From Verrucomicrobiia bacterium (GTDB lineage: Bacteria; Verrucomicrobiota; Verrucomicrobiae; Limisphaerales; UBA11358), in assembly GCA_030042375.1 (NCBI GenBank), contig JASHZU010000230.1:1-5939 (forward strand): 5,939 nucleotides of DNA. Direction: 5' to 3'. The notes below the pieces were generated by a model that did no database searches, was not told the DNA's origin, and saw only the letters and a list, made by a program, of their open reading frames with translations. The position numbers and the translations under genes are program-made. The stretch's first letter is position 1; each line of letters opens with the position of its first letter. Of this stretch, positions 1 through 5,816 are shown in pieces.

Positions 1-570
1 TTAGTTCCACGACAAATTTTCCGGCATTTGCGAAAGCAATTTATTTTTCCATCCGCCTTTGGCCTGTAAAATTTTCCGCCAAAGCTGGTCCGGCGGCGTT
101 TCAAAAACCAATTCTAGCGTGGCCGGATATGTCAGCCACGATTTCCGTTTCATCTCATCTTCCAATTGCCCGGGCGACCATCCGGCGTACCCCGCGAACA
201 TCTTCACTTTCTTGCCCACCGAAAACGATTCCCCAATCTCCATCAAATCGTCGAGTGAATGCCCGAGGTTCAGGTTGGGAAAAACATTGGCATCCGGGAT
301 AAAATTATCCGAATGGAGGAAACTTAGCGCCGAAGGTTGTACCGGGCCGCCCAGGAAAAGTTGCGCTTCCTTGAGCGCATCCGGCAAATCCGCCACGATG
401 ACATCGCCCACTTTGTTTCCCGTGGAGCGGTTTAGCACCAATCCAAAAGCACCTTCGGAATCGTGCTGGCAAATCAGCACCACCGTCCGTTGGAAAAACG
501 AGCCCGACAACTGTCCGCTGTCCAGCAGCAGCTGGCCTTTCAAAAACTTTGACTTGGCTGAGTCCGGCAT
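1..570 (-). CDS. yqgE: YqgE/AlgH family protein (UPF0301)
   Basis: This is a small, probably cytoplasmic protein of the YqgE/AlgH (DUF179) family, whose biochemical function is not settled. Family signatures, numbered from the longer 205-residue reading: a GQLLLDSGQL-type opening at 28-37, HDSEGAFGLVLNR at 52-64, FLGGPV at 88-93, FAGYAGWSPGQLEDEM at 141-156 and a conserved SWL at 160-162. The stop codon occupies the first three bases of the window, so the 3' end is complete. The frame can be opened by a GTG at 618, only 9 bases after the upstream stop, but that start has no ribosome-binding site and adds 16 non-conserved residues. The ATG at 570 has a GAGG 8 bases upstream and gives 189 residues, close to the roughly 187 of E. 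coli YqgE, so I chose it. It lies just downstream of the DA1-like gene on the same strand with no terminator between, so the two are probably co-transcribed. Family assignment is firm; role is unknown. Confidence 0.93.
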   Translation of the reverse strand: MPDSAKSKFLKGQLLLDSGQLSGSFFQRTVVLICQHDSEGAFGLVLNRSTGNKVGDVIVADLPDALKEAQLFLGGPVQPSALSFLHSDNFIPDANVFPNLNLGHSLDDLMEIGESFSVGKKVKMFAGYAGWSPGQLEDEMKRKSWLTYPATLELVFETPPDQLWRKILQAKGGWKNKLLSQMPENLSWN

Positions 571-578
571 AGCCCGCG

Positions 579-582
579 CCTC
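579..582 (-). promoter_or_regulatory. Ribosome-binding site deciding the yqgE start
   Basis: On the minus strand a GAGG lies 8 bases before the ATG at 570. The alternative GTG at 618 has only a T-rich stretch upstream and no purine-rich core. This favours the shorter reading. Confidence 0.45.
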
Positions 583-627
583 AATCTTGCTCAATTCCGG
601 CGTTTTGGCAACTGCCACCGGAAAAAA

Positions 628-1734
628 TCAGTTCTGCGGCAATGACAAAGCCATTTCATTTCCTGTGTCCACGTTCAGGATGCGCACGCTGTTTTTCTCA
701 ATGTTTAAGCAACGAATGGTCACTTTCGCCCCGCCCACGGACACTTTGAATTCATCGCCCACAAAAAACGAGTGTCCATTGATAATCGCCGAAGGCAACC
801 CGCCCCATAAAATTCCCTGGAGCTGGATTGTTTTCGGCGCTACGTACAGCGCCGTCGCTTGCGTATTTTCGACTGGCGCGCTCACCGTGACCGTGGTTGT
901 CGGCATTTGCACGTCCCGTACTTCATCCAGGTGCCCTTCTTCCAAACGGTCCGTCGTCCCGTATTGCATCCAATCCAGGATGGCATCGAAACCGTATTCC
1001 TGTTCCGCCTCGATGAATAAATTCACCTGCCCGCGCGTATAGGTGTTCGCCAGCACGCGCTTTTTTTCGCCCTCCTCGCCTTGCGAATCCATCAGCAGGT
1101 ATCCCATCATCTCGCAAAATCCTTCCTCCGCATCGCGTGCTATCCGCGCATGGCGCTCCCCGGGCACGTTCTCGCCTACCCATGCATGCGATAATTCATG
1201 CGCGCACACTTCCCTCAATTGCGCCGCCGATTGCCCCGTTAGCAGCCCAATCTTATAACGCTTTCGTCCGTCGTCTGCCCGGTACGGTTGCGTGTAGCCC
1301 AGCACCTCCGAGTTTTCCGCCGCGTTGTTGTTCATTACGGAATCCACATCCACCTGGTCAATCGCCGAGACATCCACATTGGTGGGAAACGAGGTGTAAC
1401 GGGAAAACAACCTGTCCAGGTCATCGTGCGCGCCGTCAAAAATGTTGTCGACCTCATTGGCATCCATTACGGCGTCTTTGGCGTCCCGCGCGCACAGCCA
1501 CCGCCCATCCGGCAACTGTGTGCCCCCGTCCTTGACCGGCAGCCCGCAAACATAGCAGCGCGGCAACTGGATGCAGTTCGAGCAAATCTCCACCTGCTCG
1601 CCGGTTACTTGGTCGGTGATAAGATAAACGGTCCCGTGGATTTCCTGGCCGCAAATGGCGCAGACATCCGCCCATGCCGCCACTGCGGCGCAAGCGAACC
1701 AAATCGTCAAAATAAGCTTAAAACAACGCTGCAT
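628..1734 (-). CDS. Secreted LIM-like/DA1-type zinc metallopeptidase
   Basis: The 368-residue product is predicted to be exported and proteolytic. Residues 1-22 form a Sec signal peptide with a hydrophobic core and likely cleavage after AWA. Next comes a LIM-like zinc module: C26-x2-C29-x21-C51-x2-C54 and, five residues later, C60-x2-C63-x17-C81-x2-D84. Around 105-270 is a DA1-like peptidase domain with zinc-binding HELSH (179-183) and a downstream EEGFCEMM segment (203-210), whose Glu is the likely third ligand. This matches the HExxH...EEGxC layout of plant DA1 proteases. A Thr/Val/Pro-rich linker (about 276-300) leads to a C-terminal beta-type domain (about 303-366) with an LQGILWGG...AIINGHSFFVGDEF pattern like GspB/PilP pilot domains. 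The ATG at 1734 is kept because it sits directly before the signal peptide, although no clear Shine-Dalgarno is seen. A terminator upstream isolates the gene from transketolase; yqgE follows closely. Substrate is unknown. Confidence 0.88.
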   Translation of the reverse strand: MQRCFKLILTIWFACAAVAAWADVCAICGQEIHGTVYLITDQVTGEQVEICSNCIQLPRCYVCGLPVKDGGTQLPDGRWLCARDAKDAVMDANEVDNIFDGAHDDLDRLFSRYTSFPTNVDVSAIDQVDVDSVMNNNAAENSEVLGYTQPYRADDGRKRYKIGLLTGQSAAQLREVCAHELSHAWVGENVPGERHARIARDAEEGFCEMMGYLLMDSQGEEGEKKRVLANTYTRGQVNLFIEAEQEYGFDAILDWMQYGTTDRLEEGHLDEVRDVQMPTTTVTVSAPVENTQATALYVAPKTIQLQGILWGGLPSAIINGHSFFVGDEFKVSVGGAKVTIRCLNIEKNSVRILNVDTGNEMALSLPQN

Positions 1735-1858: not shown

Positions 1859-3697
1859 TTACAGCGACTTGACCTTCTTCGCAATGCCGGCGGCATCAAT
1901 GCCATACCACGCGAGCAATTCTTCCGGCTTGCCGGAACGGGCCAGATGGGTCACCGCGAGCTTGTGCACCTTGATGCCTTCCGTGCTCAGTTCACCCGCC
2001 ACCGCGTCGCCCAAACCGCCTTCGGAATAATGATCTTCCACTGTGATGACGGTGTTGTTGGTCTTTTGCGCTGCCGCGAGAATTTCTTTTTTGCCCAGCG
2101 GCTTGATGCTATACGCGTCAACCACCGTGATATTGATGCCTTCGTTCTTCAATTGGTCCGCGGCCTTCAACGCTTCATACAGCGTCACGCCCGCCGCCAC
2201 CACCGTTACCTTGTCGCCCTGCCGCAGCACCTTCGCGCCGCCGATCGGGAACTGCTCATCGGTGTTGTAAATCACTGCCGTCTTCGGACGCGAAGTGCGC
2301 AGGTAACAAACGCCCTTGGTATGCGCCATTTGTTCCACCAGCTTTTCCGCGCTCACCGCGTCTGACGGATAAAGCACCGTGGCGCCGACTACCGCGCGCA
2401 TCATCGCCAAATCCTCCAGGCCCATCTGCGACGGACCGTCTTCGCCGATGCTCACGCCCACGTGCGAGCCCGCGAGTTTCACATTCCCCTGCGAAATACC
2501 GGCAACACGGATGTGGTCATACGCGCGGGTGAAGAAGCAGGCAAACGTCGAGGCAAACGGTATCTTGTGACGGGCCGAGAAACCCATCGAAACGCCCACC
2601 ATGTTTTGTTCCGCAATGAAACATTCAAAGCTGCGTGACGGCTCTTTCTTGAAAAATTTTTCCGCAAAGGTGGAATTCTTCGTGTCGCCGTCCAGCGCCA
2701 CGATCCGCTTGTCCACATCTCCGATGCGCAACAGCGCGTTGCCGTAGGCCTCGCGTGTGGCTACGGAATCACCGAGCTTATAATTGATTGGCGGATAGCT
2801 CGCCGGCGCGGCATTCTGCGGCTCCGGCAGCGCGTTCGGCTTGGCAATTTCCACGCCCAGGCCCGATTTTGCGCTGGGCTGGAGTTCAGCAATCGCCTTG
2901 GCCGCCTCTTCTTTGTTCAATGCCTTGCCATGCCAGCCTTCTTTGTCCTGCAGGAACGAAACCCCTGCGCCTTTGTACGTCTTGGCAATGATTGCCAGCG
3001 GCTGGTCATTCAAGCCCACACCGCTCAGCACTTCGAGGATTTCCTCGATGTCATGGCCGTCGATGTCCTCAACGCGCCAGCCAAACGCTTCAAAACGATC
3101 GCGATAAACGCCGATATTATGGCCGAATGCCGTTTCCTGGCTTTGGCCCAGGCGATTCGCATCAACGATGGCGATTAAATTATTCAGCTTGAAATATCCC
3201 GCCAGCGACGCCGCTTCCCAAACCGAGCCTTCAGCGATTTCGCCGTCGCCCATCAAAACGTAGGTGTTGTAATCGAGATTATCCACCCGGGCTGCCAGCG
3301 CCATGCCCACGCCTACGCCCAGTCCTTGTCCCAGCGAGCCGGTCGCAACGTCCGCAAACGCCAGCCGCGGCGTCGGATGCCCTTCCAGGTCGCTGGTGAA
3401 CTGGCGCAGGGTCACTAGCTCGCTCACGGGAATAAAACCGTTTTCCGCCCACACCGCGTACAGCAATGGCGCCGCATGGCCCTTGGAGAGGATGAAGCGG
3501 TCATTATTGTAATAGTGCGGATTCTTCGGGTCGTATTTCATGTGCCCGAAAAACAGGGCCGACACCACATCCGCCGCCGAGCAGCAGGACGTGGGATGCC
3601 CGCTGCCCGCTGCAGTCGTGGCATTGATAGAATGAATACGTAACTGGTTCGCGATGCCCTTCAAAAGTTCAATGTCAATCTCGATCATGGAACGCAT
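1859..3697 (-). CDS. tkt: Transketolase, animal-type short form
   Basis: This is a thiamine-diphosphate and divalent-metal dependent cytosolic enzyme. It moves two-carbon ketol units between sugar phosphates in the non-oxidative pentose phosphate pathway. All three domains are present: ThDP/PP-binding (about 1-280), Pyr-binding (about 310-475) and C-terminal (about 485-612). Visible active-site residues are H34 in GSGHPT, H74 in SKGHAAP, metal-site D151 in GDGE and N181 in NRLGQ. Also visible are H256 in WHGK, catalytic E363 in IAEQN, H412 and D420 in SHVGVSIGEDG, and R470 in RTSRP. At 612 residues it is shorter than the roughly 660-residue E. coli/yeast type. It resembles human TKT closely from memory, including ATTAAGSGHPTSCCSAA and Gln185 where yeast-type enzymes use a His. 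The start could be the ATG at 3697 or at 3688; neither has a clear Shine-Dalgarno. A strong terminator follows. The frame is intact with no missing key residue. Confidence 0.97.
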   Translation of the reverse strand: MRSMIEIDIELLKGIANQLRIHSINATTAAGSGHPTSCCSAADVVSALFFGHMKYDPKNPHYYNNDRFILSKGHAAPLLYAVWAENGFIPVSELVTLRQFTSDLEGHPTPRLAFADVATGSLGQGLGVGVGMALAARVDNLDYNTYVLMGDGEIAEGSVWEAASLAGYFKLNNLIAIVDANRLGQSQETAFGHNIGVYRDRFEAFGWRVEDIDGHDIEEILEVLSGVGLNDQPLAIIAKTYKGAGVSFLQDKEGWHGKALNKEEAAKAIAELQPSAKSGLGVEIAKPNALPEPQNAAPASYPPINYKLGDSVATREAYGNALLRIGDVDKRIVALDGDTKNSTFAEKFFKKEPSRSFECFIAEQNMVGVSMGFSARHKIPFASTFACFFTRAYDHIRVAGISQGNVKLAGSHVGVSIGEDGPSQMGLEDLAMMRAVVGATVLYPSDAVSAEKLVEQMAHTKGVCYLRTSRPKTAVIYNTDEQFPIGGAKVLRQGDKVTVVAAGVTLYEALKAADQLKNEGINITVVDAYSIKPLGKKEILAAAQKTNNTVITVEDHYSEGGLGDAVAGELSTEGIKVHKLAVTHLARSGKPEELLAWYGIDAAGIAKKVKSL

Positions 3698-3799: not shown

Positions 3800-4438
3800 T
3801 CACTGTGGCGGTAAAACATGCCCCGGAATCGAACACGTGGGAAGCTGGCCAACCGCATTTATCGTGTAAACTCCGCCTGCCGGGCACACCGGAAACACTC
3901 CGCCTTTTAAATACGGCAGCAAATCCTGTTCGGTAGGGGTATCGTTATCTGTCTTGTTTTTATCCAATGCCCACGCCTGTTTGGCCGCGTAAATCAGCCG
4001 TAGGTTGGCAATGCAGGCATTCCGTTCCTGGGTTTCCGTTTGCGCCACGGCATCCTCCTGTGCCTGTTGTGCTTCCGCCGCCTGTTCGTTCGCCGCTTGC
4101 ATCTCGTCCAATTGCTCCTGCCGCTGTCCCAGCGATTCCCGCGCCGCGCTCAACTGCTGTATCAATTTGGTGTTGTCCGTCTGCAATTGCTGGATCTGGC
4201 TTCGCAGCCGGGGCAAATCCTGGTTGTCCGCCCGCAGCCGAATGAGTTCCGCGCTTTCGTTGGCGGCGATGGCATTGGTGAGTTCGGCCAGATTCGTCTC
4301 CAGTTCGGCCACCTGTTGCCGGGCTGTGCCCAACTGCGTCAGTGCCATGTCCTTTTGGTGGTTCGCCGAGAACAGGAGAATTTCGCTGAGAATCAACAGC
4401 AGGATGCAGACGGCTGGAAACAGTTCTTTGAATTTCAC
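3800..4438 (-). CDS. Membrane-anchored coiled-coil protein with pseudopilin-like C-terminal domain
   Basis: With the GTG at 4438 as start, the product has 212 residues. A basic VKFK opening leads into one membrane helix (about 6-24, rich in Leu/Ile). A long Gln/Glu/Ala-rich coiled coil follows (about 28-138), then a C-terminal globular domain (139-212). That domain has the pattern ACIANLRLIYAAKQAWALDK...DLLPYLK...CPAGGVYTINAVG...CSIPGH, with C142, C185 and C202. It resembles the tail of pseudopilins common in Verrucomicrobiota and relatives. The prepilin GFTLxE cleavage motif is absent, so this is not an ordinary pilin. Topology is probably a short cytoplasmic N-terminus with an extracytoplasmic coiled coil and tail. 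The frame stays open to an ATG at 4519, but that start lacks a ribosome-binding site and adds a non-hydrophobic 27-residue leader. The GTG has GAGG 5 bases upstream. It lies 102 bases upstream of transketolase with no visible terminator. Function is unknown. Confidence 0.8.
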   Translation of the reverse strand: MKFKELFPAVCILLLILSEILLFSANHQKDMALTQLGTARQQVAELETNLAELTNAIAANESAELIRLRADNQDLPRLRSQIQQLQTDNTKLIQQLSAARESLGQRQEQLDEMQAANEQAAEAQQAQEDAVAQTETQERNACIANLRLIYAAKQAWALDKNKTDNDTPTEQDLLPYLKGGVFPVCPAGGVYTINAVGQLPTCSIPGHVLPPQ

Positions 4439-4443
4439 AACTC

Positions 4444-4447
4444 CCTC
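4444..4447 (-). promoter_or_regulatory. Ribosome-binding site supporting a GTG start
   Basis: Minus-strand GAGG lies 5 bases before the GTG at 4438, within the purine-rich run GAGGGAGTT. The upstream ATG at 4519 has no comparable sequence. This is the main reason for preferring the shorter reading of the pseudopilin-tailed gene. Confidence 0.5.
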
Positions 4448-4527
4448 TTTTTTCTCCCTTTTCCCGCCCGCCGTCAAACATAAAGCGTTGGGGATAAATG
4501 TCCCCTGCCACTTTTTCATGGCCAGGC

Positions 4528-4769: not shown

Positions 4770-5282
4770 ATGAACGACGACAACATCCTCATTATTGCCG
4801 ATGACGGCGCCGCTGAAACCTCCACTCCTCCGCCTCCCGCACCGGAAAAGATCGCGACCAGCGATGAAAGCTGGCTCGGCAACCGCCAAAATGCCTTTGC
4901 CGAAAACTTCCTGGAGAAGCACAAAGCTGAATTCCAGGATTTCGAGCGTATCGAACGCGAAAAGATTGCCTGCTTCGAACAATTCCACGCCTTGGAGCGC
5001 GAAATCGCCGGTCGCCGCCAATGGCTTGAAAACCTGCAAAAAGATATTGCCGGCTATCAGGACGTGGACATCGCCGCCGACCTATTCAAAAATATGCAAA
5101 TGACCGGCCGTCCATTGCTGGAGATTGCCCGGGATCCTCTCTTCGTCGGCGTCGCCTTGATCCAAAAACACGGCAAAAAGATTTTGCAACTTGCCGAAGC
5201 CGATGCGACGGTATTGCAGGATAAGTTCGACACCTTTAAATCCGAAAAGCGCGAACTGCTGAAAGAGCTGGAATTAATTTGA
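4770..5282 (+). CDS. Hypothetical soluble helical protein, 170 residues
   Basis: I do not recognise this protein. It opens with a short hydrophobic strand (NILIIADDG) and a Pro-rich linker (about 20-26). A charged, mostly helical region follows (about 38-95), with spaced aromatic and hydrophobic residues and Glu/Lys/Arg consistent with a coiled coil. A middle segment (about 100-132, DIAADLFKNMQMTGRPLLEIARDPLFVG) is less charged and may be globular. A final acidic-basic helix covers about 134-170. There is no signal peptide, membrane segment or conserved Cys cluster, so it is probably cytoplasmic. The ATG at 4770 follows an A-rich leader of repeated ACTAAAAA-like units without a Shine-Dalgarno sequence. 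Codon periodicity and the stop shortly before the next plus-strand gene support a real gene. It is divergent from the pseudopilin-tailed gene. It may share a role with the next small coiled-coil gene, but nothing in the sequence states what. Confidence 0.78.
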   Translation: MNDDNILIIADDGAAETSTPPPPAPEKIATSDESWLGNRQNAFAENFLEKHKAEFQDFERIEREKIACFEQFHALEREIAGRRQWLENLQKDIAGYQDVDIAADLFKNMQMTGRPLLEIARDPLFVGVALIQKHGKKILQLAEADATVLQDKFDTFKSEKRELLKELELI

Positions 5283-5366: not shown

Positions 5367-5816
5367 ATGAATGATCCGGAGACATCATTGGAGAAGCGCG
5401 TGCTGGCGCTGGAAGCCCGCGTCCAGGCTCTCGAAGCCCTGGCCCCCGGCCTGCCGGAAAAATCCCGGCGCGTCGATTCGCTCGCCAAAAACGTCTCCGA
5501 ATCTCATTTGAATTTTCGTATCGAATTGCTCTCCCTCATTGAAGACCACATTGAGGTCCTGAAGCTGATGCACAGCATCGTCGGCCCCACCGACAATGCC
5601 AAAAATAAACTCGTCCTCACCTACATCCGCCGCGCCGAAAGCAAACTCGACCAGTTCCAGGCCCACTTCGCGCAATTGGAAGAAACCCGGAAACGTCTGG
5701 AAAATAATCCGCCGCAAAACTCTCCTGAGCCTGGGCCAAAACCAGGCGATGCGCCTCCGCTGAAACCTTCCCGGTTGAATCGACTCCTCCGTTCCGCGTC
5801 CTTATGGAATATGTAA
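5367..5816 (+). CDS. Hypothetical coiled-coil protein, 149 residues
   Basis: I do not recognise this protein. Residues 7-25 are a textbook short heptad coiled coil, with L8, V12, L15, V19 and L22 at alternating 4 and 3 spacing, and could oligomerise the protein. A second amphipathic helical section spans about 45-72 (FRIELLSLIEDHIEVLKLMHSI), and a third about 76-112, charged and rich in Leu/Arg/Glu. A Pro-rich low-complexity linker (about 114-133) leads to a short basic tail (RLNRLLRSASLWNM). There is no signal peptide or membrane helix, so it is probably cytoplasmic. The ATG at 5367 has a weak GGATGGA purine stretch 3 bases upstream and its own promoter-like sequence. It follows the 4770 gene by 84 bases and converges on a truncated gene at the right edge. 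Function cannot be inferred. Confidence 0.8.
   Translation: MNDPETSLEKRVLALEARVQALEALAPGLPEKSRRVDSLAKNVSESHLNFRIELLSLIEDHIEVLKLMHSIVGPTDNAKNKLVLTYIRRAESKLDQFQAHFAQLEETRKRLENNPPQNSPEPGPKPGDAPPLKPSRLNRLLRSASLWNM

Follow-up and report, generated by a model that had tools for sequence, protein, structure and literature searches.

DA1 is known as a ubiquitin-activated intracellular enzyme of plants. The question raised by the stretch of DNA analysed here is what a DA1-type protein would do in a bacterium behind an apparent signal peptide. The stretch, hereafter the window, comprises the 5,939 nucleotides of contig JASHZU010000230.1 from a Verrucomicrobiia bacterium of the order Limisphaerales (assembly GCA_030042375.1), and the gene in question starts with ATG at the upper end of positions 628..1734 on the minus strand. 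We propose that its product is a periplasmic DA1-type metallopeptidase of Limisphaerales (Verrucomicrobiota), held at a secretin by a C-terminal domain, and we give this reading a probability of about 0.45. The features of the gene are as follows.

628..1734, minus strand: coding sequence of the DA1-type protein, 368 amino acids (open reading frame, Pfam, homologue search)
1672..1734, minus strand: apparent Sec signal peptide, residues 1-21 (hydropathy and sequence; putative cleavage between AWA and D)
1483..1662, minus strand: LIM-like two-zinc module, residues 25-84, CxxC-x22-CxxC-x5-CxxC-x17-CxxD (alignment, pattern, predicted model; Pfam LIM below cut-off)
910..1422, minus strand: DA1-like peptidase domain of gluzincin type, approximately residues 105-275 (Pfam PF12315, VIA rows)
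1186..1200, minus strand: HELSH zinc-binding and catalytic motif, residues 179-183 (alignment, pattern)
1123..1128, minus strand: E203-E204 (alignment)
1030..1041, minus strand: Y232-G235, aligned to plant YGDG (alignment)
847..894, minus strand: low-confidence linker, residues 281-296 (pLDDT <50 at model residues 260-275)
634..846, minus strand: PilP/GspC-HR-like C-terminal domain, residues 297-367 (structure and sequence comparison)

A DA1-type peptidase with a LIM-like module

The window protein belongs to the DA1 family, as the original prediction had claimed: Pfam DA1-like (PF12315) matches residues 129-227, inside the region 105-270 named there, with 27.9 bits against a cut-off of 25, the match spanning only positions 47-143 of the 213 of the profile. 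The VIA rows to zinc peptidases span about residues 88-276. PF12315 was found at E<=0.5 in all 20 members of the family alignment, while the other Pfam entries on the window protein (Peptidase_M1, Peptidase_M78 and LIM) all stayed sub-threshold. The HELSH and EEGFC motifs predicted behind the zinc module are likewise present, the peptidase-side positions reading H179, E180, H183, E203, E204 and C207. In an alignment reaching from Limisphaerales to plants (17 rows, 16 of them distinct, one plant row having been entered twice), H179, E180, H183 and E204 do not vary; E204 is likely the third zinc ligand. From the plant C-terminal motif of the SPVYGDGFR type only Y232 and G235 are common to the window protein, both invariant in 16 distinct rows. 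The protein would be an active peptidase.

The predicted ligands of the preceding module are C25, C28, C51, C54, C60, C63, C81 and D84; six of them had been placed correctly before, and the first pair had been put at 26 and 29. All eight, together with H179, E180 and H183, form invariant columns in the 20-row family alignment. The search with the window protein gave 685 homologues at E<=0.001 from 5918 candidates, and the homologue counts given here rest on the best 120 of them, window protein included. The eight-ligand pattern fits 112 of these 120, always with a linker of five residues (112/112), and eight fall outside it. Since the ligands are invariant in this alignment and the pattern recurs in 112 of 120 listed homologues, the Cys/HExxH arrangement is not due to chance. 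The protein would bind metal.

The module was also considered as a true LIM domain, and this was rejected: Pfam LIM (PF00412) reaches 13.2 bits on the window protein against a cut-off of 22.9, and the linker between the zinc halves (C54-C60) has five residues, where two are usual in LIM domains. Because of this score and this linker length the module has to be called LIM-like rather than LIM, the term that the original prediction had used. Pfam LIM matches 11 of the 20 family alignment members at E<=0.5 (best E 0.0013). The gap of five had been singled out as unusual; its length was confirmed, yet it is no oddity, because the LIM-like module of DA1 itself has a long linker too (x7 in plants, x5-x6 in bacteria).

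The apparent Sec signal peptide of the original prediction was recovered as well, with a hydropathy peak of 2.49 in a 12-residue segment starting at residue 7, followed by AWA and D. By the same crude measure a hydropathy of at least 1.8 was reached by 102 of the 120 listed homologues versus 4 of 120 plant rows. The protein would be exported to the periplasm via Sec.

The C-terminal domain and the secretin

The original prediction, otherwise partly supported, had missed a separate small beta domain at residues 297-367. The predicted fold of this tail most resembles the type IV pilus protein PilP and the HR domain of the type II secretion protein GspC; in the structure search PilP ranked first, and other small beta barrels scored nearly as high. 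A profile built from six PilP-position proteins of the same order detects the window tail, which is homologous to them. Pfam PilP, T2SSC and T2SSB gave no match on the window protein at E<=1, and the PilP-position proteins themselves reach 18.3 and 15.9 bits with T2SSB, below its cut-off of 28.4. Against PDB sequences nothing significant was found with the tail profile (best ProQ, E 0.28), the window protein (best a putative zinc metalloprotease, E 0.14) or the profile of its family (best alpha-actinin-2 associated LIM protein, E 0.85).

The tail is present in 120/120 listed homologues and in 20/20 members taken from the order (L052-L071, hand-picked along the ranking of an order-wide profile search), and in none of 120 plant DA1 rows and none of 42 other DA1 rows (0/19 from the phylum and 0/23 from a second bacterial search, a few rows being repeated between sets). 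G307 and N319 are invariant in 17 tails of peptidase, PilP-position, thioredoxin-like and Sel1-like proteins; both lie in the putative counterpart of the first beta hairpin of PilP, about residues 303-323. The tail tree (82 rows, 76 columns) is compatible with one fusion and with several.

The HR domains of GspB, GspC and PilP are described as sharing one common fold and binding the N0 domain of secretins (PMC9239104, PMC3169554), and the contact between PilP and the secretin as lying around the first beta hairpin of PilP (PMC3441751). Since these domains share the fold and bind N0, docking at a secretin is, by analogy, the most likely role of the tail. According to the proposed mechanism the zinc metallopeptidase would reach the periplasm via Sec; there the tail would bind secretin N0 in the fashion of PilP, GspC and GspB and anchor the enzyme at the foot of a pilus or secretion channel. 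The LIM-like module might bind or gate substrates, which is suggested by the need of plant DA1 for its LIM-like domain: the C274Y exchange there abolished peptidase activity, as stated by Dong 2017 (PMC5322733). The catalytic zinc would be coordinated by HELSH and E204, and the enzyme would cleave proteins of the envelope or of the pilus machine at the channel base.

The tail shares its predicted fold with PilP, GspC and GspB, and in sequence it is also akin to the product of the gene at the PilP position in this order; it differs in being fused to a peptidase and encoded outside any pil operon. This location is one point for a plausible alternative, which we hold with some reserve, that the tail is a general SH3-like envelope module which binds peptidoglycan, lipoproteins or other proteins and is unconnected with a secretin; the enzyme would then be an ordinary zinc protease of the periplasm or the cell surface. 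The near-equal match of other small beta barrels favours it too, as does the presence of tail-type domains on exported Limisphaerales proteins of the thioredoxin-like, Sel1 and NERD kinds. It is opposed by the first rank of PilP in the structure search and by the stand-alone form of the tail, which is the PilP-position gene beside the secretin in pilM-N-O-P-secretin-like operons of the same order. PilN and PilO of these operons are named from position and size alone, neither being recognised as such by Pfam or NCBIfam; two of the seven operon-type regions (L076, L084) show no secretin, both being interrupted by contig ends.

The sharing of one C-terminal tail by several different exported proteins could also mean that it is a sorting signal that takes its bearers out of the cell by way of a type II or pilus-like secretin, the peptidase then acting extracellularly. 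Secretins over the Pfam cut-off in 12/12 related genomes would suit such a route; nevertheless we consider it improbable, as the HR domains of PilP and GspC belong to the machine and not to its cargo (PMC9239104, PMC3169554), and as in L124 the tail-type domain stands N-terminally in a NERD protein of which one segment looks membrane-like by eye, a poor fit to secreted cargo.

Returning to docking at the secretin, a wider and rather doubtful extension is that the PilP/GspC-HR-type domain serves in Limisphaerales as an address tag by which unrelated exported proteins (DA1-type, thioredoxin-like, Sel1, NERD) would be gathered at the pilus or secretion secretin, where peptidase and thioredoxin might act on pilus parts or on cargo in passage, processing or repairing them. 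If the tail hypothesis holds, secretin-binding HR domains would have been reused in Verrucomicrobiota for recruiting enzymes to pilus and secretion machines.

The PilP/GspC-HR-like domain was seen repeatedly across Limisphaerales (L072, L073, L075, L079, L080; L081, L122, L124, L129). Sel1 matches exceed the Pfam cut-off in L122 and L129 and stay below it in L074 and L082. By motif alone, 52 tail-bearing open reading frames divide into 17 with DPFxP, 14 with WCxxC, 8 with HExxH and 13 others; this tally is no frequency, because 30 best-hit loci were mixed with 20 regions chosen by hand for long frames, and a few of the frames look wrong.

Relation to plant DA1

The plant DA1/DAR proteins (PF12315) share with the window protein the peptidase family, HExxH with E204, and a preceding LIM-like module whose linker is longer than that of LIM; the alignment covers the peptidase and the second zinc half with its L.DGR.LC pattern. 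The window protein differs in having no LIM over the cut-off and no UIM at E<=1 (plant row P0131 has LIM and UIM_2 over cut-off), an apparent signal peptide, D as the eighth ligand, YTRG for YGDG, and the extra PilP-like tail. From this likeness a bacterial ancestor of the LIM-DA1 arrangement had been suggested, in which case the protein would be a plain LIM-DA1 peptidase, ancestor-like to plant DA1, with an incidental tail. We regard this as quite unlikely, the tail being found in every listed homologue and every order member taken. Trees were built from 72 selected rows, five of which were dropped for failing the anchor pattern and ten more thinned for the careful tree. In that tree (57 rows, unrooted) P0260-P0263 form a group with plant DA1 (97/88), and the two together join the clade of the window (98/93), apart from Lentisphaerae-type proteins. 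P0260-P0262, bacterial-looking DA1 proteins, carry Pfam LIM over cut-off (three of the four), and P0260 and P0261 have hydrophobic leaders. The arrangement of clades differs in the quick tree, and the approximately unbiased (AU) test does not reject a grouping of plants with the window's clade (p 0.654, the constrained tree standing 6.12 log units above the free one). The careful tree did not uphold direct ancestry, but the quick tree differs from it and the AU test did not decide. DA1 proteins that combine LIM domains with an apparent leader thus occur outside the window too, and for its clade the term side branch is more fitting than that of a demonstrated ancestor of plant DA1.

The DA1 likeness of Roseiflexus proteins is already published: Dong 2017 (PMC5322733), crediting Burroughs 2011, describes alignments with high similarity to proteins of Roseiflexus that bear four CxxC/H pairs, and by this description they resemble the window type. 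Lentisphaerae-type proteins (e.g. L032-L051, P0248) also have a DA1-like peptidase and, judged by eye, hydrophobic leaders and additional CxxC fingers; 14 of 19 rows fit the pattern, all with the x5 linker, and these proteins end plant-like with DPVYGxG. The database copy of P0248 is named 'protein DA1 [Lentisphaerae bacterium]'. Unlike the window protein, neither these nor the bacterial DA1 rows of the second search bear the tail. No exported bacterial DA1 or DA1-PilP fusion was found among the titles and abstract openings searched, in which subscription journals were few.

The family is conserved in its clade. Its profile matches 79 of 196 genomes drawn from the order, many matches covering the C-terminal domain only, and among 387 phylum genomes PF12315 has hits in 37, of which 35 exceed the cut-off, with none in 14 control genomes; tblastn of the window protein against a plasmid collection gave no match. 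This large, apparently exported bacterial branch of DA1 has kept the LIM-like module and the peptidase with no UIM match and no LIM over cut-off, so that it could allow the core activity, and what the LIM-like module contributes, to be studied apart from ubiquitin.

Neighbouring genes

1..618, minus strand: YqgE/AlgH (DUF179) gene, directly downstream, conserved neighbour (Pfam, related loci)
1859..3697, minus strand: transketolase gene, upstream, conserved neighbour (Pfam, related loci)
3800-4519, minus strand: coiled-coil protein, no Pfam match over cut-off
4770-5282 and 5367-5816, plus strand: open frames, no Pfam match over cut-off

Twelve related loci were compared, ten labelled Limisphaerales, Verrucomicrobia subdivision 3, Verrucomicrobiia or Verrucomicrobia, and L012 labelled Methylacidimicrobium fagopyrum. 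An upstream transketolase lies within about 1.6 kb in 11 of them and yqgE/algH follows downstream in 10; yqgE also adjoins 6 of 20 distant members, with peptidase identity down to about 31%. Since both neighbours are conserved, co-transcription of the DA1-type gene with them is suggested.

A match to the 3800-4519 protein stands upstream of the transketolase in 7 of the 12 loci, and L012 has a match without transketolase. The last 70 or so residues of this protein resemble the C-terminal part of type II pseudopilins.
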